Of a DNA stretch of 32,181 nucleotides, positions 1,355-32,181 are shown piece by piece. A model generated the notes under the pieces. The model did not search any database. It saw only the letters and a program-made list of their open reading frames with translations, and was not told the DNA's origin. The stretch is from the NCBI GenBank assembly GCA_030696505.1, contig JAUYSD010000202.1, forward strand, positions 1 through 32,181, written 5' to 3'. This DNA comes from Sulfuritalea sp. GTDB lineage: Bacteria; Pseudomonadota; Gammaproteobacteria; Burkholderiales; Rhodocyclaceae. The translations under genes and the position numbers were made by a program. Every line of letters starts with the position of its first letter. The stretch's first letter is position 1.

Positions 1355-2653
1355 TCATTTCCCGAACAAAGCGATCGACTCCAGATGCGAGGTATGCGGG
1401 AACATGTTGGCAATGCCGGCAGCCAGCAAGCGGTAACCTTTTTCGTGCACCAGCACCGCCGCGTCACGCGCGAGCGTGGCAGGGCTGCAGGATACGTAAA
1501 CGATGCTGCGCGGACCGCCTTCTGCGGGCAGCGCCTTGACCAGCGCGATCGCACCTTCGCGCGGCGGATCGATCAGCAGTTTGTCGAAAGCGCCCAGCGC
1601 GGCAAAGCTTTCCTCGGTCGCCGCGAACAGGTTGGCAACGGCAAATTCGCAGCGCGATGCGAGGCCGTTGTGGGTGGCGTTTTGCCGGGCCCGGCTGACC
1701 AGTGCGGCGCTGCCCTCGACGCCGAGGACGCGCGCGCCCAGCCTGGCAATGGGCAGCGTGAAGTTGCCCAGACCGCAAAACATGTCCGCAATCCTCTCTC
1801 CGGGCTGCGGCTTTAACAGAGCCATGGCGCGGCGCACCAGCATGCGGTTAACGCCGTGATTGACCTGGGTGAATTCAGTCGGATGGAACTGCAACTCAAG
1901 GCCAAAGTCCGGCAGCTCGTAGCTCAGCAGGCTCGCGTCGGCCGGATGGAACAACACCACGGTATCCGGGCCTCCAGCCTGCAAATACCAGATGATCCCG
2001 TGCTCCTCGGCAAACCGCCTCAATCGATCCAGATCGTCGGACGTCAATGGCTCCAGATGGCGCAACAACAACACCGTGCGCGAACCGCCCACGGCGACTT
2101 CGATCTGCGGCATGCGGTCCGGTTGCGACATGCCCTCGACCAGGACCTTGAGCGCAGGGATCAAATCGGATACATGCGGCGGCAAGACGGGGCAGGAATC
2201 CATCAACGCCACATAGCTGCTGTGCTTTTCGCGAAAGCCGATCAGTGCGCCGCCTTTGCTTGCCACGTAGCGCACCGAGAGGCGGGCGCGCAGCCGGTAG
2301 CCCCAGCCGGTACCGGAGATCGGCGGCAAGAGTTGTTCCGGCTTGATGCGGGCGATATGCCAAAGCGCATCCTCCAGCACGCGCTGCTTGGCGGCGGTCT
2401 GGCCGGCCAGGTGCAGGTGCTGCATCGAGCAGCCGCCGCAGGTGCCGAAGTGCGGACAGGGTGGCACCACGCGCTGGCTCGACGCGCGCAGTACGCGCAG
2501 AACATGAGCCTTTTCGTAACTCGGCTTGCGCCTGTAGCTGGCGTAGTCGACCGCTTCGCCGGGTAACGCGCCTTCGATGAAAACCACCTTGCCATCAACG
2601 TGCGCGACGCCGCGTCCTTCGTGATCCAGGGATTCGATAGCTGCTAGCGGCAT
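1355..2653 (-). CDS. rlmD: 23S rRNA (uracil-1939-C5)-methyltransferase RlmD
   Basis: 432 residues, full length for RlmD/RumA, which makes m5U1939 in 23S rRNA using S-adenosylmethionine. The N-terminal ~60 residues form the TRAM domain. The iron-sulfur cluster cysteines are in [10 protein letters not shown] (about residues 66-75), with the fourth in DSCPVL. The methyltransferase fold contains [15 protein letters not shown] (SAM binding), the IDPPREG motif and the catalytic cysteine in [12 protein letters not shown]. These features separate it from RlmC and TrmA. It is transcribed from the region shared with the DUF7931 gene and ends at a bidirectional terminator. Confidence 0.95.
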
Positions 2654-2687
2654 GATGAAGTCCGAGCCTGTTCAGCAAAAGGGGGCG

Positions 2688-2695
2688 ATTATAAT
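2688..2695. promoter_or_regulatory. Symmetric -10 core shared by rlmD and the DUF7931 gene
   Basis: GATTATAATC (2687-2696) is a perfect 10-bp palindrome containing a TATAAT in both directions. It lies 35 bp from the rlmD start and about 120 bp from the DUF7931 start. No strong -35 box is seen on either side, so a bidirectional promoter is plausible but unproven. Confidence 0.4.
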
Positions 2696-2817
2696 CGGCG
2701 CCTGAATCCTGGTCTTGTCGCTTTGTCCGGCAGAACGATGTCCGCGTCTGCTGCCGCAACCCGCGACAGTCCGGGACATTCCGGCATAGGCGATCAGGAG
2801 ATTCGAGCAGCTTCGTC

Positions 2818-3300
2818 ATGGATCCCAACTATCAATTGCTGACCAGCGAAGCCGATTACCGCCAGGCCTGCGATGCGATTCTGAGCAGGGCGGAACGTGA
2901 AATCCTGATTTTCGACCGCGACCTCGTCGCGCTCAAGTTCGAGGACACGGCACGCCTTGCGGCGCTGACCAATTTTCTGCGAGCCGGCGGCACAAGCGGC
3001 ATCCGCATGGTGCTGCACGATCCTGGTCCGCTGGAGCGCAATTCGCCCCGCCTGACGCGACTCATTTTCCGTTTTTCGCATGCGATCGAGGTGCGTCAGA
3101 GCCCGGACAATCTACGCCATCTGGCCGACACTCACATACTTGCGGACGAAAGCAACGGCGTCCGCCGGTTTCACATCGATCAACCGCGTAGCGCGGTGAT
3201 CCTCGACGACCCCACCTACATCAATCCCTGGCGGCAACGCTTCGAGGAACTTTGGGAACTCTCCCATCCCTGCCTGCAGCTCAATACGACCGGCCTTTGA
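2818..3300 (+). CDS. DUF7931 domain protein (PLD-like fold, no HKD motif)
   Basis: 160 residues matching the domain now called DUF7931, which I know as a stand-alone protein or as a tail fused to GNAT acetyltransferases in betaproteobacteria. Features shared with that family are the early FDRDL motif, then SPRLTRLIFRFSHAIEVR, then RHLADTHILAD and the C-terminal RFEELWELS. The layout recalls phospholipase-D-type folds, but the HxKxxxxD catalytic motif is missing, so a binding role is more likely than catalysis. There is no signal peptide. The nearest AGGAG lies well upstream of the ATG and spacing is poor, so the start is moderately certain. Function unknown. Confidence 0.75.
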   Translation: MDPNYQLLTSEADYRQACDAILSRAEREILIFDRDLVALKFEDTARLAALTNFLRAGGTSGIRMVLHDPGPLERNSPRLTRLIFRFSHAIEVRQSPDNLRHLADTHILADESNGVRRFHIDQPRSAVILDDPTYINPWRQRFEELWELSHPCLQLNTTGL

Positions 3301-26890: not shown

Positions 26891-29491
26891 TCAGCTTCCC
26901 GCCGCTGCTGCCATTTCCGATCCCTGGCGACCCCGCATCGCTTCCGCCATCGAAATGTTCGGTCGATGGATGTAGAAGCCCTGCGCCAGATCGATGCCTT
27001 GCGCGACGACCTGGTCGAGCACCTCCTGATCCTCGACGTACTCGGCCACGGTGCGGATTCCCAGGTCCTTGCTCAGGGTGACGATGCTGCGCACCAGCGC
27101 CCTGTCCTTCTCGCTGCTCTTCATGCCGAGGATGAAGTCGCCTTCGATCTTGAGGAAATCGATGGGGAAGCGCTTGACGTAATGAAACGACGAGAAACCG
27201 GAACCGAAATCGTCGATCGCCAGCTTGAAACCTTCGCTGCGCAGGGTGCCGATGAAACGCTCGAGCAACGCCATGTTCTTGATCGTTTCGCGTTCCGTGA
27301 TCTCGAACACCAGGCGCGTCGGATCGATCCTGAACCGGCTCGCAATGCGCCGGGTTTCCTGCACGAAATCATTCAGCACCAGGGCCCGCGGTGACATGTT
27401 GATGAACAGGTAGCCGCCGTAGCCGGTGGTTTCCACCGCCTCCAGGGTTTTCTCCAGCTGTATGAAATCCAGCTTGTGCATAACGCCCATTTTTTCCGCG
27501 ATGGCGACATATTCTTCGGCGATGATGTAACGCCCATCCTCCATGCGTATCCGCGACAGCACCTCGATTGCCTCGACCTCGCCGCTGACGACATTGATGA
27601 TCGGCTGGAAGAAGGGCACCACGCTGCGCTTCTCGACCGCGTTCAGGATCAGCATGCTCTTCTCGCCAAGGGTGCGGAACACGTCGATCACGTCCTGGGC
27701 ATCGGGCACCACCACGCGATTCTTGCCCTCGGCCTTGGCGCGATACATCATGTTGTCGGCAAACAGGAAGAGATCCTTCATCGCCACGGCATGGTCGGGA
27801 TAGGTGGCCATGCCGATCGACACCGAACCGGTGACGACGGCGCCGTCCGGCACGCCCATGGTCACGCCGCCCACCGCGTCGATGATCCGCCGCGCCACCA
27901 CCGCGGCGGCCTCCAGGTCGGTTTCCGGCAGGATCGCGACGAATTCGTCGCCACCGTAGCGCGACAGCAGGTCGTCGTCGCGAATCGCCGACTTGATGCC
28001 GCCGACCAGCAACTGCAGCAGCTTGTCGCCGACACCGTGGCCGTAGGAATCGTTGATCGACTTGAAGTTGTCGGCATCGATCACCAGCAGCGTGAACTTC
28101 TTGCCGTGCCGCGAGGAGCGGATCACCTCGTTCTCGATCAGTTCCCAGAACACCCGCTGGTTAAACAGATTGGTCAGCGGATCGCGCGTGGCGTAATACT
28201 CGAGATCCTTGGTGTATTTGTCGATGGCCTTGACCGAGCCGACGACGTTGAGCAGGGTGGCGAGAATGCTCTGCACCACCAGCAGGCGCATCGGGTCGGT
28301 TTCGTCCTGCGGTTGCATGCCGATGCCGACGATGCCGCCGATCTTCGGCGCATCGACCAGCAGCGACTTGATCTGCACGTCGATGTCCGCCGCCTTGAGT
28401 TCCGGCGTCATGGTGCCGACGTCGGCAATATTGTGTTTGACGCGGATCGAATAGCCCGTATCGAAATACTCGGTACGCTGCAGGATCTGGTACAGGCAGT
28501 TTTCGAACACCCGCTTGGTCGCATCGGACGGACGTCGGCGCCAGAAGATCTCCAGGTCGTAGGCCTCGTCGCCGATCTTGAACACCGAAAACATCAGGTA
28601 GGCCGGCATCACCGCATCGATATCGATGATCAGGCGGCTGACGTACTCGCGCCAGTCCTTGATGACTTCCGTGGTGAGAATGAATTTTTCGAGCAGGCGA
28701 ATCTCGAATTCGAGCATGTCCTTGTCCACCGCGATCGCCCGGATGCGCTCGGTCAATTGCCTGACTTCGCTGGCCACCGCGTTGAATTCGGAAAAACCCA
28801 GGTCGATCTGCCTGGCTTCCAGCGCGCGCAGGTCGGAGATGCGGTTGACCGCCCTGATGTCGCCGGCCAGGGTGTCGATCGATTTTTCCAGGCGGCGTCG
28901 TATGTACAGCACCATGACCAGGGTCACCACCAGGACCACCGGAACGATGGGCGCGAAGGCATAGGTGAAGCGCGTCTGGTGCGATTCGATGGCGGGCGCC
29001 ACGTTCTGCCGCACGTCGATCACGCCCAGCACATCGCCGACCGCCGCATTGACATGGCACTTGAGGCAGACGTCTTGAGCCTGCAGGGGATAGACGACGC
29101 GGATGATGTCGCCGGCATCGATGCGCTGACGATTGCCTTCCCTCAGCGCACGCTCGATTGCGGCATCGGGTGTCTTCTGCGCAATCTCGCCGAACAATGC
29201 GCTGACCTTGGGTCCGCGATAGATGTCGATCTGGCGCTCGCTGCGGTCCACGGATTTCTGTATCGCTCCCAGGAAGCCTTCCAGTTGCCGGCGATTCCAG
29301 CCGGTGCTCATCAACTCGAACATGGCGTTGAAGGTCAGCTCGGCAAAGGCGGTGGCGTCCTGCACGGCATCGTCGCGCACCGAGCGGTCGTAAATTCCGC
29401 GCACCACGAACAGCGTGGTGGCGAAGATCGCGACCGCGAATACCGCGCCGGCGGCGAGCAGCAGACCCTTGATGCTGCGCACGGGATTCAT
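26891..29491 (-). CDS. Heme-binding sensor diguanylate cyclase/phosphodiesterase (CxxCH-GGDEF-EAL)
   Basis: 866 residues from the ATG at 29491 (no clear ribosome site). A first helix (about 10-31) and second helix (about 177-197) frame a periplasmic domain of ~145 residues with a c-type heme motif CLKCH (142-146), similar to the DUF3365/Tll0287-like heme sensors. A linker region and a GAF-like part (about 285-420) follow. The GGDEF domain (about 430-600) has an intact RYGGDEF (513-517) and an inhibitory I-site RxxD (504-507). The EAL domain (about 620-850) keeps ExL at 643-645, Asn698, Glu730, Asp760-Asp761, Lys781 and Glu817, so both c-di-GMP synthesis and breakdown look possible. The final motif is LKIE where LKID is usual. 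Redox or a gaseous ligand may be the input. Confidence 0.88.
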   Translation of the reverse strand: MNPVRSIKGLLLAAGAVFAVAIFATTLFVVRGIYDRSVRDDAVQDATAFAELTFNAMFELMSTGWNRRQLEGFLGAIQKSVDRSERQIDIYRGPKVSALFGEIAQKTPDAAIERALREGNRQRIDAGDIIRVVYPLQAQDVCLKCHVNAAVGDVLGVIDVRQNVAPAIESHQTRFTYAFAPIVPVVLVVTLVMVLYIRRRLEKSIDTLAGDIRAVNRISDLRALEARQIDLGFSEFNAVASEVRQLTERIRAIAVDKDMLEFEIRLLEKFILTTEVIKDWREYVSRLIIDIDAVMPAYLMFSVFKIGDEAYDLEIFWRRRPSDATKRVFENCLYQILQRTEYFDTGYSIRVKHNIADVGTMTPELKAADIDVQIKSLLVDAPKIGGIVGIGMQPQDETDPMRLLVVQSILATLLNVVGSVKAIDKYTKDLEYYATRDPLTNLFNQRVFWELIENEVIRSSRHGKKFTLLVIDADNFKSINDSYGHGVGDKLLQLLVGGIKSAIRDDDLLSRYGGDEFVAILPETDLEAAAVVARRIIDAVGGVTMGVPDGAVVTGSVSIGMATYPDHAVAMKDLFLFADNMMYRAKAEGKNRVVVPDAQDVIDVFRTLGEKSMLILNAVEKRSVVPFFQPIINVVSGEVEAIEVLSRIRMEDGRYIIAEEYVAIAEKMGVMHKLDFIQLEKTLEAVETTGYGGYLFINMSPRALVLNDFVQETRRIASRFRIDPTRLVFEITERETIKNMALLERFIGTLRSEGFKLAIDDFGSGFSSFHYVKRFPIDFLKIEGDFILGMKSSEKDRALVRSIVTLSKDLGIRTVAEYVEDQEVLDQVVAQGIDLAQGFYIHRPNISMAEAMRGRQGSEMAAAAGS

Positions 29492-29567: not shown

Positions 29568-29912
29568 TCACGCCTGTTCCTCGCGGACGGCCAGGCAATC
29601 GGAGGCCATGCCGCCGGTGGCATAGATGTTGAGGAATTTCAGGCTGATCACGCGCAGGCAGGATGACAGGTTCTTGTCGTTGGCCACCAGGCAGCCGTCG
29701 AGCACCCGCTCGATCAGGCGCGGCACGGTGAGGCCGCATTCATCGGCCATGGCGTCGATGACGTTCCAGAACGCGCGCTCCAGCGCAACCGTGGTGCTGT
29801 GCCCATGAATGCGGAAACCGCGCTTTTCGGGAATGAACTCGCTGATCTGCGCCGTCGAGCAGGAGTCGAACATGTGATCGAGCAGATCCAGCGATTCACG
29901 ATATATGGTCAT
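29568..29912 (-). CDS. Ribbon-helix-helix domain protein
   Basis: 114 residues from the ATG at 29912, with a strong GGAGG site. The middle matches the RHH_4 family (PF13467): FRIHGHSTTVALERAFWNV (basic strand and first helix), then IDAMADECGLTVPRLIERVL and NLSSCLRVISLKFL. These proteins bind DNA as dimers through the strand. An N-terminal ~30-residue acidic lead with one Cys precedes it. It is the first gene of a likely two-gene unit with the GGDEF-EAL protein (76-bp gap) and is divergent from the YeeE operon, so it is the natural candidate to regulate both sides. Confidence 0.82.
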   Translation of the reverse strand: MTIYRESLDLLDHMFDSCSTAQISEFIPEKRGFRIHGHSTTVALERAFWNVIDAMADECGLTVPRLIERVLDGCLVANDKNLSSCLRVISLKFLNIYATGGMASDCLAVREEQA

Positions 29913-30054
29913 CTTGCCTCCTCCGGACGGGCCGCAGTTCCGCGGCGAATTCTTGTTTGCAATAAATACTACCCGAGCCGCGTCCCCTTCCATAAAATTC
30001 TTTCACAGCGTCGGCCGGCCAAGCCGAAACGCAACAACAAGGAGGAGAACCGGC
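29913..30054. promoter_or_regulatory. Divergent control region of the RHH gene and the YeeE operon
   Basis: The 142 bp contain an AT-rich patch (29949-30002) in an otherwise GC-rich area, with TAGTAT on the minus strand and TAAAAT (29993-29998) on the plus strand as possible -10 boxes. A GAATTC lies at 29947-29952. No certain -35 boxes or operator repeats could be defined by eye. Confidence 0.4.
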
Positions 30055-30552
30055 ATGGAGTTTTTCCGCAAGACTCTCGATCCCATCATCGCGCTTGCGG
30101 CCATCGCGGTACTCGACATTTTCATGTTCCTGCTGATGGGCGCGTGGACGGTGGGCGGCGGCGAGACCATGATGACCGGACTGATGGCCCAGGCCGTGCT
30201 CGGCGACGAACTCGACCGCATCCCCTTCTGGAGCATCGTCTTTCCGCCGCATGCGGACTACTGGAAGATCTACATCAGCCTCGGCATGCTGTTCGGCGCC
30301 TTCGTCGGCGCGGTGGCGAGCAAGGAGTTCTACCTGCGCGTGCCGCGCCATCTTTCCGAATGGGTCCTGATCACCATCGGCGGCCTGCTGATGGGCTTCG
30401 GCATCCGGCTGGCCTACATCTGCAACGTCTCGACCTTCTTCGGCCTGATGCCGGAAATGAACCTCGGCGGCTACCTGGCCATGTCCGGCATCATCGCCGG
30501 CGCCTGGGTCGGTTCGCTGATCTACAAGAAACTTCTGGAGCGCGACACATGA
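30055..30552 (+). CDS. YeeE/YedE family half-transporter, subunit 1
   Basis: 165 residues, four or five membrane helices. The family motif sits near the C-terminus: IGGLLMGFGIRLAYICN with Cys123, then GGYLAMSGIIAGAWVGSL. This matches the C-terminal half of a full-length YeeE/YedE (TsuA) thiosulfate transporter, where a Cys in this motif helps hand the substrate through the membrane. A strong GGAGGA ribosome site precedes the ATG. A four-base ATGA overlap leads into the second half-transporter, so the two are very likely made together as one complex. Confidence 0.88.
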   Translation: MEFFRKTLDPIIALAAIAVLDIFMFLLMGAWTVGGGETMMTGLMAQAVLGDELDRIPFWSIVFPPHADYWKIYISLGMLFGAFVGAVASKEFYLRVPRHLSEWVLITIGGLLMGFGIRLAYICNVSTFFGLMPEMNLGGYLAMSGIIAGAWVGSLIYKKLLERDT

Positions 30553-31199
30553 CACCCATCGTCGAATGCCTGGTGGCCTTCCTGTTCGGCTCCGTCGCCG
30601 GCCTGTTGATGCAGCGCTCGCGCTTCTGCAACACCGCCGCGCTGCGCGACGCGATCATGTTCAAGACCTATCGCAACACCAAGGCCATGCTGGTGGCGAT
30701 GATGATCCTCACCGTCGGCTTCACCGGCTTCATGAGCGTCGGCGCCGGCCATCCGCTGCAGTTCGACGTCGGCCTCAATACCTTCGCCGGGCTGTTCCTG
30801 TTCGGCATCGGCATGGTGCTGGCCGGGGCCTGCACGGTGTCTACCTGGGTCAAGGCCGGTGAAGGCAACATCGGCGCGCTGTGGGCGCTGATTTTCACTT
30901 TCGTCGGCATGTTCCTCTTCTCGCTGGTGTGGTCGGCGAGCTGGTGGCCGCCCGCGCCGCAGACCATGACCGGCCAGATCAATGCCCCTGCCCTGCAGCT
31001 CGGCTTCGCCAATGCGCAGACGCTGCAGGACAAGTTCGGCATACCCGCGATCGTCTTCGGCCTGGCGCAGACGGCCTTCCTGGGCCTGCTCTATCGCGGC
31101 ATCCTGCGCCGCGAGCGCGCCCAGCATGCCGAACACGAGAAGCACCAGAAGGAGCATCAAAAGAAAAAGGCGGCCGCGGCCGCCGCTGTCGAAGCCTGA
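30549..31199 (+). CDS. YeeE/YedE family half-transporter, subunit 2
   Basis: 216 residues. It matches the N-terminal half of YeeE/YedE transporters: GLLMQRSRFCNTAALRD with Cys27 and GIGMVLAGACTVSTWVKAGE with Cys95. With Cys123 of the first subunit, the pair supplies three conserved cysteines comparable to those of TsuA, but encoded in swapped order. The C-terminus is a cytoplasmic tail rich in His, Lys and Glu (QHAEHEKHQKEHQKKK then an Ala run), which is unusual and could dock the TusA-like protein encoded next. Thiosulfate or another sulfur compound is the likely cargo, by family only. Confidence 0.88.
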   Translation: MTPIVECLVAFLFGSVAGLLMQRSRFCNTAALRDAIMFKTYRNTKAMLVAMMILTVGFTGFMSVGAGHPLQFDVGLNTFAGLFLFGIGMVLAGACTVSTWVKAGEGNIGALWALIFTFVGMFLFSLVWSASWWPPAPQTMTGQINAPALQLGFANAQTLQDKFGIPAIVFGLAQTAFLGLLYRGILRRERAQHAEHEKHQKEHQKKKAAAAAAVEA

Positions 31200-31215
31200 T
31201 CGGGAGAAAAAGAAA

Positions 31216-31521
31216 ATGGGATTGTTCGGATCGAAAAAGAAAGTCGAGGAAAGCGTTTCCGGTGGCGTGGCGGTACTCGCGGACGGCACCAAAATCGGCA
31301 TCGCGCGCCGCGTCGACTGCCTCGGCGTGTCCTGTCCACGGCCGCAGCTGATGACCAAGAAAGCGGTCAACGAGGTCGCCGTCGGCGACATCATCGAAGT
31401 GCTGGCCGACAACCCGTCCTCGGTCGAGGCCCTGCCGCCGCTGTGCGACGAACTGGACGCCACGCATCTGGAGACGGTCAAGGCGTCCAATTGCTGGCAC
31501 ATCTACATCCGCAAGGACTGA
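31216..31521 (+). CDS. TusA-family sulfur carrier protein
   Basis: 101 residues. The two-layer TusA fold is preceded by a ~30-residue lead (MGLFGSKKKVEESVSGG). The catalytic Cys is in CPRP (Cys40), and a second Cys precedes it (Cys35, DCLGVSCPRP). Two more are at 77 and 93. The C-terminal strand is WHIYIRKD. TusA proteins carry persulfide sulfur between enzymes in the cytoplasm; YeeE transporters are commonly paired with them. It is 16 bp after the YeeE subunit 2 gene with a GGGAG site, so the imported sulfur is probably passed to this protein. It differs from housekeeping TusA in having four cysteines and the extension. Confidence 0.9.
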   Translation: MGLFGSKKKVEESVSGGVAVLADGTKIGIARRVDCLGVSCPRPQLMTKKAVNEVAVGDIIEVLADNPSSVEALPPLCDELDATHLETVKASNCWHIYIRKD

Positions 31522-31525
31522 TGCC

Positions 31526-31735
31526 ATGTGGCAAAGACTGCTCCTGCGCTTCCTCGTGGCGCTCTCGGCGATAGCCAGCATCGGCGGCCTGCTCTGGATG
31601 ACTTTCGCGCCGCCGCCGGGCATGAAGGCGACCGCGGATGGCGTGCCCTATTTCACGCCGCCGGTGGTGCATCCGGTCAGCGGCGAAGCCGTGCCGACGG
31701 AAACCTTGGTGCGCCATTACAAGGGAGGCAAATGA
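31526..31735 (+). CDS. Small single-helix membrane protein (69 residues)
   Basis: It has a basic N-terminus (MWQRLLLRFLV), one membrane helix (about 5-27) and a ~40-residue outward tail rich in Pro (APPPGM, FTPPVVHPVSGE). It has no cysteines. AAGGA precedes the ATG, four bases after the TusA stop codon. It overlaps the next small gene by four bases. I do not recognise the family. Confidence 0.7.
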   Translation: MWQRLLLRFLVALSAIASIGGLLWMTFAPPPGMKATADGVPYFTPPVVHPVSGEAVPTETLVRHYKGGK

Positions 31736-31827
31736 TGGGTATCGACGCGCAAACCATTGCCCACGGCCTGCTGTTCTGCCTGGCCTTCGGCATGATGTAC
31801 CTGGCATTTTTCAGCGACTCGCTGTGA
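31732..31827 (+). CDS. Tiny membrane protein (31 residues)
   Basis: Two consecutive ATG codons at 31732 and 31735 follow a strong GGGAGG site. The product is one hydrophobic helix (IAHGLLFCLAFGMMYLAFF) with a Cys in its middle, and ends SDSL. The gene overlaps the previous one by four bases. It is too short to show by codon statistics, but the ribosome site, overlap and context support translation. Family unknown. Confidence 0.6.
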   Translation: MMGIDAQTIAHGLLFCLAFGMMYLAFFSDSL

Positions 31828-31852
31828 GCCTGACCTTTCTCGGGAGAGCCGT

Positions 31853-32125
31853 ATGCTGAATCGCACCGGCGTAATTTTCTGTTCCGTGAGCCTGGTGCTG
31901 ACCGTCGCCGTGTGCACCGTCGGCTTCTCGCTGGCCGCCCTGCCGCGCGAGACCATCGCGGCCTCGAAACGGCCCGCGCCGCCGGAAACCCTGCCCGAGA
32001 TCGACCTGCCCGGCTTCGGCAAGGTGACGGTAATCGACCTGATGGGCTATTACATCGACAATCCGCCGGCGCCGGTGGCCGCGGGCGCTGCGCCGGCCGC
32101 GGCGAAGCGCTTCGGCGGCTGCTGA
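31853..32125 (+). CDS. Small membrane-anchored protein ending in Gly-Gly-Cys (90 residues)
   Basis: One membrane helix (about residues 7-29) follows a short positive start (MLNRT), which predicts the C-terminal ~60 residues outside the cytoplasm. The tail has LPEIDLPGFGKVTVIDLMGYY, a Pro/Ala linker and ends KRFGGC. Apart from Cys10 and Cys21 in the helix, the terminal Cys is the only cysteine. GGGAGAG precedes the ATG. A free C-terminal Cys on a flexible arm recalls sulfur-carrying arms such as that of DsrC, but no homology is claimed. Function unknown. Confidence 0.7.
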   Translation: MLNRTGVIFCSVSLVLTVAVCTVGFSLAALPRETIAASKRPAPPETLPEIDLPGFGKVTVIDLMGYYIDNPPAPVAAGAAPAAAKRFGGC

Positions 32126-32127
32126 CG

Positions 32128-32181
32128 ATGCGTACTGCGCTGGTCGCCCTGGCCCTGATTGCCGCGCCTGTGTGGGCGGCG
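32128..32181 (+). CDS. Secreted or periplasmic protein, 5' end only
   Basis: An ATG two bases after the previous stop codon opens MRTALVALALIAAPVWAA, a textbook signal peptide with an AxA-type cleavage site, and the frame is open to the window end. Only 18 residues are visible, so the product cannot be named. It continues the operon. Confidence 0.6.
   Translation, partial: MRTALVALALIAAPVWAA

Follow-up and report, generated by a model that had tools for sequence, protein, structure and literature searches.

What does a tightly packed operon do that sets a split YeeE-type transporter and a TusA-like sulfur carrier beside three very small membrane proteins at the end of a Sulfuritalea contig? 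The stretch of DNA analyzed here (the window) is the entire 32,181-nucleotide contig JAUYSD010000202.1 (C222) of assembly GCA_030696505.1, a genome of 4.4 Mb in 398 contigs, and its closest relatives by record title are Sulfuritalea and Rhodocyclales. Cytoplasmic sulfur import in sulfur oxidizers has been described as poorly understood (PMC11582611). We consider it probable that the operon is a dedicated system for sulfane-sulfur import and relay that feeds reverse dissimilatory sulfite reductase (rDsr), as a Pseudomonadota variant of the YTD cluster (yeeE-tusA-dsrEFH type II) reported from cable bacteria, Desulfobacterota and Nitrospirota (PMC13293266, PMC13047784, PMC12998232).

The operon lies on the forward strand and opens with the C-terminal half of a YeeE transporter (PmpA-like, 165 aa, 30055-30552; PF04143 positions 171-310, E = 9.7e-21), followed by the N-terminal half (PmpB-like, 216 aa, 30549-31199; PF04143 positions 1-167, E = 9.2e-26) and a 101-aa TusA-family sulfur carrier with the motif SCPRPQ (31216-31521; PF01206, E = 5.3e-19). 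Next come two single-transmembrane proteins of 69 and 30 aa, s69 (31526-31735) and s30 (31735-31827), and s90 (31853-32125), a 90-aa membrane-anchored protein ending in RFGGC. The first 54 bp of a gene for a secreted rhodanese-like protein (32128-32181) complete the window. From yeeE-C to this last reading frame the junctions are a 4-bp overlap, 16 bp, 4 bp, a 1-bp overlap, 25 bp and 2 bp.

The contig thus ends within gene seven of a twelve-gene operon, 54 bp past its start. The remainder came to light when the genus, the window's own genome included, was searched with the DsrF-like protein: window positions 32041-32181 are identical to positions 1-141 of locus L123 on contig C137 of the same genome (G000), an exact 141-bp overlap, and the operon continues there. 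L123 holds the rest of the secreted rhodanese-like protein (L123:88-732), which has 214 aa when started at the ATG in window position 32128, and then a DsrE-like protein of 96 aa (D96; 732-1022), a DsrF-like protein of 95 aa (D92 family; 1019-1306), a DsrH-like protein of 61 aa (H61; 1314-1499), a two-domain periplasmic rhodanese of 310 aa (1549-2481) and a cytochrome c of 201 aa (2488-3093). The last two were named on the close relative L043, where the rhodanese matches PF00581 (E = 1.1e-24) and the cytochrome, which contains CxxCH, falls just below the cut-off of a CBB3-type model (E = 8e-6). The secreted protein has a rhodanese match in the Thiobacillus locus L113 (E = 1.5e-8) that is faint in L043 (0.22). 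A first-pass annotation of the window had placed all of its genes correctly and had rightly read them as a tight operon for sulfur transport and relay that also encodes three small membrane proteins and a secreted one; the genes it saw are real, but the set is about twice as long.

A search with the TusA protein found 113 relatives among genome contigs, of which the best 80 loci were kept; their genes were called with a simple purpose-written caller and clustered into families. Gene order is the same in most of the 80 loci. Completeness was counted in the 58 loci that extend at least 1.3 kb to the left and at least 4.3 kb to the right of tusA: 38 have all twelve families, 14 have eleven and six have ten, and the best-represented families (TusA, YeeE-N, DsrF- and DsrH-like) occur in 58 loci, the least represented, the cytochrome, in 49. 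Since the loci were found through TusA, these counts give the completeness of the set where that TusA exists. Within the genus, an orthologue with 86-100% identity occurs in nine of 31 genomes including the window's own, and homologues of the small genes stand in the same order in loci titled as alpha-, beta- and gammaproteobacterial. Contig extension and a survey of co-occurrence, both proposed in the first-pass annotation, therefore bore fruit, as the families recur together and the downstream genes resemble sulfur genes. The gene set is a well-delimited Pseudomonadota variant of the known YTD module and not a new kind of system.

The link to rDsr comes from the genomes that carry the operon, 50 of which, drawn from the 80 loci, were screened for pathway genes. 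dsrA is present at E <=1e-30 in 48 (45 above the cut-off), soxB at E <=1e-60 in 46 (44 above the cut-off) and canonical DsrE in 48, always above the cut-off. The dsrA model does not separate oxidative from reductive types; in 47 of the 50, canonical DsrE lies within about 1-2 kb of dsrA on the same contig, which is the oxidative arrangement. Of 274 genomes sampled from the class, 19 have the DsrF-like gene (canonical forms included), 93 have dsrA and 15 have both (p = 4e-5). Several genomes weigh against a role tied to rDsr. At E <=1e-30, dsrA is missing from G093 and G095 (among the 50), from G373, which is rated complete and has the full operon (L129), from G136 and G346, which carry the canonical form, and from the window's own genome. 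In this last case canonical DsrE adjoins a weak match to the dsrA model on contig C67, so the absence is probably a contig gap.

The same genomes bear on assimilatory or signaling uptake of thiosulfate by a TsuA/TsuB-like or SoxT1B-like route, in which sulfur would be a nutrient or a signal and not an electron donor. YeeE-TusA pairs act in this manner in E. coli, as they do together with SoxT1B in Hyphomicrobium (PMC11582611), and a divergent cysteine-rich regulator, described below, would suit a signal role. However, the DsrE/F/H-like trio, the periplasmic rhodanese and the cytochrome c go beyond what uptake needs, and with dsrA in 48 and soxB in 46 of the 50 bearing genomes we judge this explanation unlikely.

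Relay to rDsr would pass through the trio, whose kinship to known proteins is seen in predicted structure. The folds predicted for D96 and D92 as single chains resemble DsrEFH type I of Allochromatium vinosum (2HY5), and the DsrE-like protein carries the functional cysteine, the single conserved one of its YTD counterpart. Profile searches of the PDB gave nothing useful for D96 or H61 and, for D92, a weak DsrF match (E = 0.72) ranked below one to SspA (0.014). Pfam DsrE matches 22 of 53 D96 members (best E = 4.7e-4) and one of 56 D92 members; D96 has no NCBIfam match, including to TIGR03012, the DsrE of DsrEFH type I, and the DsrH-like family has no conserved cysteine among its homologues. Clusters of the canonical YTD kind were detected in nine loci, among them L131, by the D96 model (E = 1e-19 to 4e-9) and the D92 model (3e-20 to 4e-9). 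The DsrF- and DsrH-like proteins correspond to chp1 and chp2 of YTD, with chp2 the weaker case because the H61 model finds its counterpart in just three of the nine loci (2e-4, 3e-4 and 7e-5).

These canonical clusters occur in Gammaproteobacteria, the class to which GTDB assigns the window, as well as in a congener (G016). They encode a full-length YeeE of 477-491 aa in L124, L130, L132, L133 and L134 and a 358-aa YeeE piece in L137, and in L135 and L136 there are DsrE/F(/H) genes and no transporter in the stretch fetched. The congener's cluster (L124:5470-8454, on G016:C6) combines a 488-aa YeeE with two TusA-like genes, a 43-aa transmembrane-like protein and DsrE/F/H-like genes. In a tree of DsrE plus DsrF, eight canonical-kind loci and L131 are split from 63 others with a support of 1.0, so that L131 joins the split transporter and s69/s90 to a canonical-type DsrEF. 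This hybrid (L131:8629-13090) also encodes a 377-aa rhodanese-like protein and has a cysteine tail shared between s90 and s69.

Disproportionation of sulfur or some other anaerobic process acting on it, the function originally suggested for YTD, is highly unlikely for the operon, since the record titles mostly name organisms that we take to be sulfur oxidizers, with sox and dsr. The homology to YTD and the canonical cluster in a congener would fit such a process, as would the reported upregulation of YTD during thiosulfate disproportionation, although the paper that describes this upregulation disputes that disproportionation is what YTD clusters have in common (PMC13293266). Published type II genomes hold reductive dsrAB in 73.9% and oxidative dsrAB in 4.7% of cases, and type II subtype 1, which includes Pseudomonadota, more often has the oxidative form (PMC13293266). 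In one dataset, complete YTD was confined to Desulfobacterota and Nitrospirota (PMC12998232).

Import of sulfane sulfur, the first half of the function we favor, would fall to the two YeeE proteins. A separate YeeE-C gene was called in 72 of the 80 loci, the other eight being cut off or miscalled at that place. Its Cys123 corresponds to position 293 of TsuA in the coordinates of model NF052577 and is a cysteine in all 74 homologues, and the N-terminal half has three conserved cysteines, including Cys27 (77/77 ungapped rows) and Cys95 (80/80). CPRP is found in 82 of 83 TusA homologues. The two halves score 58.7 and 57 with NF052577, against a cut-off of 400. They also resemble YedE/FdhT (E = 5.7e-17 and 4.2e-18), the rhodanese resembles ExtH (2.9e-19), each far below the curated cut-offs, and one carrier of the operon is named Sedimenticola selenatireducens, all of which might point to selenium, tellurium or another chalcogen instead of sulfur. 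We find this barely plausible, given the co-occurrence with sox and dsr and a carrier protein that scores higher as TusA than as YedF.

The three small proteins are real genes under purifying selection. Their median ratios of nonsynonymous to synonymous substitution rates (dN/dS) in nine Sulfuritalea-group loci are 0.20 (s69), 0.17 (s30) and 0.16 (s90). Kyte-Doolittle hydropathy over 19 residues reaches at least 1.6 in 74 of 75 s69 and 75 of 77 s30 homologues. s90 matches nothing in Pfam or NCBIfam. Cysteine is the last residue of all 78 s90 homologues, 77 of which end in FxGC (RFGGC in 35, RFQGC in 12, QFGGC in 10). Arms that carry sulfur, such as those of SoxY and DsrC, typically have a terminal cysteine preceded by a Pro/Ala-rich tail, and by this analogy s90 has the features of a carrier arm. 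s69 and s90 may be paralogues (hhalign probability 34%, E = 4e-4). In L131 their homologues share the final twelve residues, and 38 of 39 nucleotides (stop included) are identical as opposed to 25 of 60 just upstream. The tail there is a recent copy within one locus, as read from the nucleotide identity, which suggests that it may be a module.

A carrier arm that collects sulfur outside the cytoplasm would need an outward C-terminus. Lysine or arginine precedes the hydrophobic core in 77 of 78 s90 and 67 of 75 s69 proteins, which favors that orientation. The net-charge rule points the same way for s69 (of 75, 45 for and 10 against) but not for s90 (of 78, 25 for and 34 against). Alternatively, s90 may be a structural or assembly subunit whose cysteine is a redox sensor or a disulfide tether, or it may face the cytoplasm and hand sulfur from YeeE to TusA. 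Small transmembrane proteins often stabilize membrane complexes, and the topology is weakly predicted; on the other side stands a cysteine that is last in 78 of 78 homologues behind a tail of the kind that carrying arms have. We think this role somewhat unlikely; it would be a variant of the import and relay function and is compatible with the other explanations.

From gene set and order, the predicted DsrE- and DsrF-like folds, the cysteines, the co-occurrence with dsr and the linkage of a regulatory element to its RHH gene, all read from sequence, we infer the substrate, direction and transfer steps of the relay as well as its sensing and DNA binding. The two-domain periplasmic rhodanese, the second, secreted rhodanese-like protein and the cytochrome c would supply the terminal cysteine of s90 with sulfur taken from thiosulfate, polysulfide or SoxYZ. 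The s90 arm would then offer it to the two-part YeeE channel with the assistance of s69 and s30. In the cytoplasm, TusA would take the sulfur and hand it over to the DsrE/F/H-like complex, from which it would reach DsrC/DsrAB either directly or via the co-present canonical DsrEFH. Control would be exerted by a cysteine-rich ribbon-helix-helix (RHH) protein on a 19-bp element and, in another lineage, by a cassette of a PhnD-like protein, a histidine kinase and a sigma-54 activator.

The RHH gene (RHH_4; PF13467, E = 9.7e-18) is divergent from the operon (29568-29912, reverse strand), and the 19-bp element GTTTGCAATAAATACTACC (29955-29973, forward strand), a candidate operator or promoter element of this regulator, lies between the two. 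Four cysteine columns are conserved at 100, 100, 100 and 94% among 52 RHH homologues, with serine at the last column in the window's copy. Allowing <=3 mismatches, the pattern GTTKGCAATAAATACYACC is found in 58 of the 60 loci with an RHH gene. It is absent from all 20 loci without that gene, in seven of which the sequence stops within yeeE-C or short of it, and the pattern read in reverse has 0 hits. This threshold was chosen because chance hits start at <=4 mismatches, where there are 65 hits in 59 loci, as against four for the reversed pattern and 1 to 16 for twenty permuted patterns. The two exceptions are L070, whose element has four mismatches, and L077, which has none. In the genus, each of the nine genomes with the operon has a single copy of the element, and the remaining 22 have no copy. 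It stays before yeeE-C in L085, where the RHH gene is kilobases downstream, and stands upstream of a rhodanese gene in L091, L092, L093, L109 and L116, where that gene directly precedes yeeE-C. The RHH protein would bind the element and would use its cysteines to sense sulfur. A wide regulon was considered and dropped: within the genus, at <=2 mismatches, the element was found at the operon only (backward control, one hit in G008). L076 (7189-8267) has a second copy, whose start lies 116 bp upstream of an additional periplasmic rhodanese gene.

In 11 loci, genes for a PhnD-like protein, a histidine kinase and a sigma-54 activator stand upstream (in L112 only the last two were called; domains were read on L113), and neither the RHH gene nor the element occurs in any of the 11. 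A -24/-12-like site precedes yeeE-C in 11 of 11 cassette loci, in none of three with an activator elsewhere and in two of 60 without an activator. Of the 13 uncut loci that lack both RHH gene and element, 11 have the two-component cassette and sigma-54-like site, and L095 and L107 have neither system. In the Thiobacillus locus (L113:4952-8633), the kinase has a HAMP domain; similar cassettes occur in Sedimenticola and Sulfuriferula loci. Presumably akin to TtrS, the PhnD-like/kinase pair may be a split sensor of sulfur oxyanions.

The operon's other neighbor, a GGDEF-EAL gene (26891-29491, reverse strand; EAL 8.6e-60, GGDEF 1.5e-41), follows the RHH gene after 76 bp in the same orientation and lies outside the conserved module. 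The first-pass annotation had called its product a heme sensor and linked the operon to cyclic di-GMP signaling. The EAL and GGDEF domains are real, and the heme part comes from one CxxCH in the presumed periplasmic portion and a Tll0287-like match (E = 0.0054) below the Pfam cut-off; the protein is a likely heme sensor in which c-heme is possible. The signaling link is unsupported because the gene adjoins the operon in just three of nine Sulfuritalea-group genomes (the window, L043 and L064), and we dropped it from the module on the same count. In a complete congener genome (L035:12631-17851), genes that by eye encode a Tat-type oxidoreductase, a membrane and an FeS subunit and a chaperone-like protein lie a few kilobases downstream of the operon; their relatives also follow it in L040/L048 and L039. 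A plasmid origin was rejected, as tblastn of the YeeE N-terminal half against plasmids gave 29 records, all below 60% identity and none at 80% coverage.

The operon is a compact and widely conserved candidate for sulfur import, and sox and dsr are already present in most genomes that carry it. Its yeeE-tusA-dsrEFH-like module would be an add-on beside canonical DsrE, next to the reported association of type II with reductive Dsr. The terminal cysteine of s90, Cys27, Cys95 and Cys123 of YeeE and Cys60 of the DsrE-like protein are testable residues, and the RHH regulator with its candidate site is a specific testable pair. We propose tentatively, and with more doubt than confidence, a membrane translocation complex of new design: a two-part YeeE with s90 as a new family of tethered carriers with a sulfur-bearing terminal cysteine (and s69, which gained the tail in L131), a second DsrEFH-like complex for imported sulfur in rDsr organisms, and a new persulfide-sensing RHH protein with a 19-bp operator, replaced by a sigma-54 two-component circuit in one lineage. 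The novelty of the operon centers on s90 with its terminal cysteine, on the split transporter and the helpers it has, and on the RHH/element circuit together with the sigma-54 system that replaces it.

The first-pass annotation had not recognized the gene set as a described one. YTD with dsrEFH type II explains part of it but not all. No account of a split transporter alongside the small proteins, the rhodaneses, the cytochrome or the RHH element turned up in the literature covered, a scope outside which the supplements, most subscription papers and the original YTD paper lie. s90 resembles SoxY by analogy, as a carrier cysteine at a flexible glycine-rich C-terminus. In SoxY the C-terminal motif is of the GGCGG type; s90, by contrast, is membrane-anchored, has no match to that or another Pfam or NCBIfam family and ends in the cysteine itself. 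PmpA and PmpB are likewise two genes that match the C- and N-terminal halves of YeeE, but they have about 130 aa and one conserved cysteine each (PMC11582611), compared with 165 and 216 aa and three conserved cysteines in the N-terminal half here. With SoxT1A and TsuA-TsuB the operon shares the YeeE fold family, cysteines and a TusA-family partner, yet it has two transporter genes, scores far below the TsuA cut-off and has other partners. DsrEFH type I is similar in the predicted folds of D96 and D92 and in the conserved DsrE cysteine, whereas the proteins here are shorter (96, 92-95 and 61 aa), the DsrH-like one lacks a conserved cysteine, and 48 of the 50 bearing genomes also hold a separate canonical DsrE (TIGR03012). 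The YTD core of yeeE, tusA, dsrE-like, chp1 and chp2 (PMC13293266) recurs in the same order, with a YeeE-family transporter, both halves of which match PF04143, and an adjoining tusA. Where YTD has a single full-length YeeE gene, the transporter here is split in two; the operon adds s69, s90, a secreted protein, a periplasmic rhodanese, cytochrome c and the RHH gene with its 19-bp element, and it coexists with dsrA and canonical DsrE, whereas the published type II genomes mostly have reductive dsrAB.

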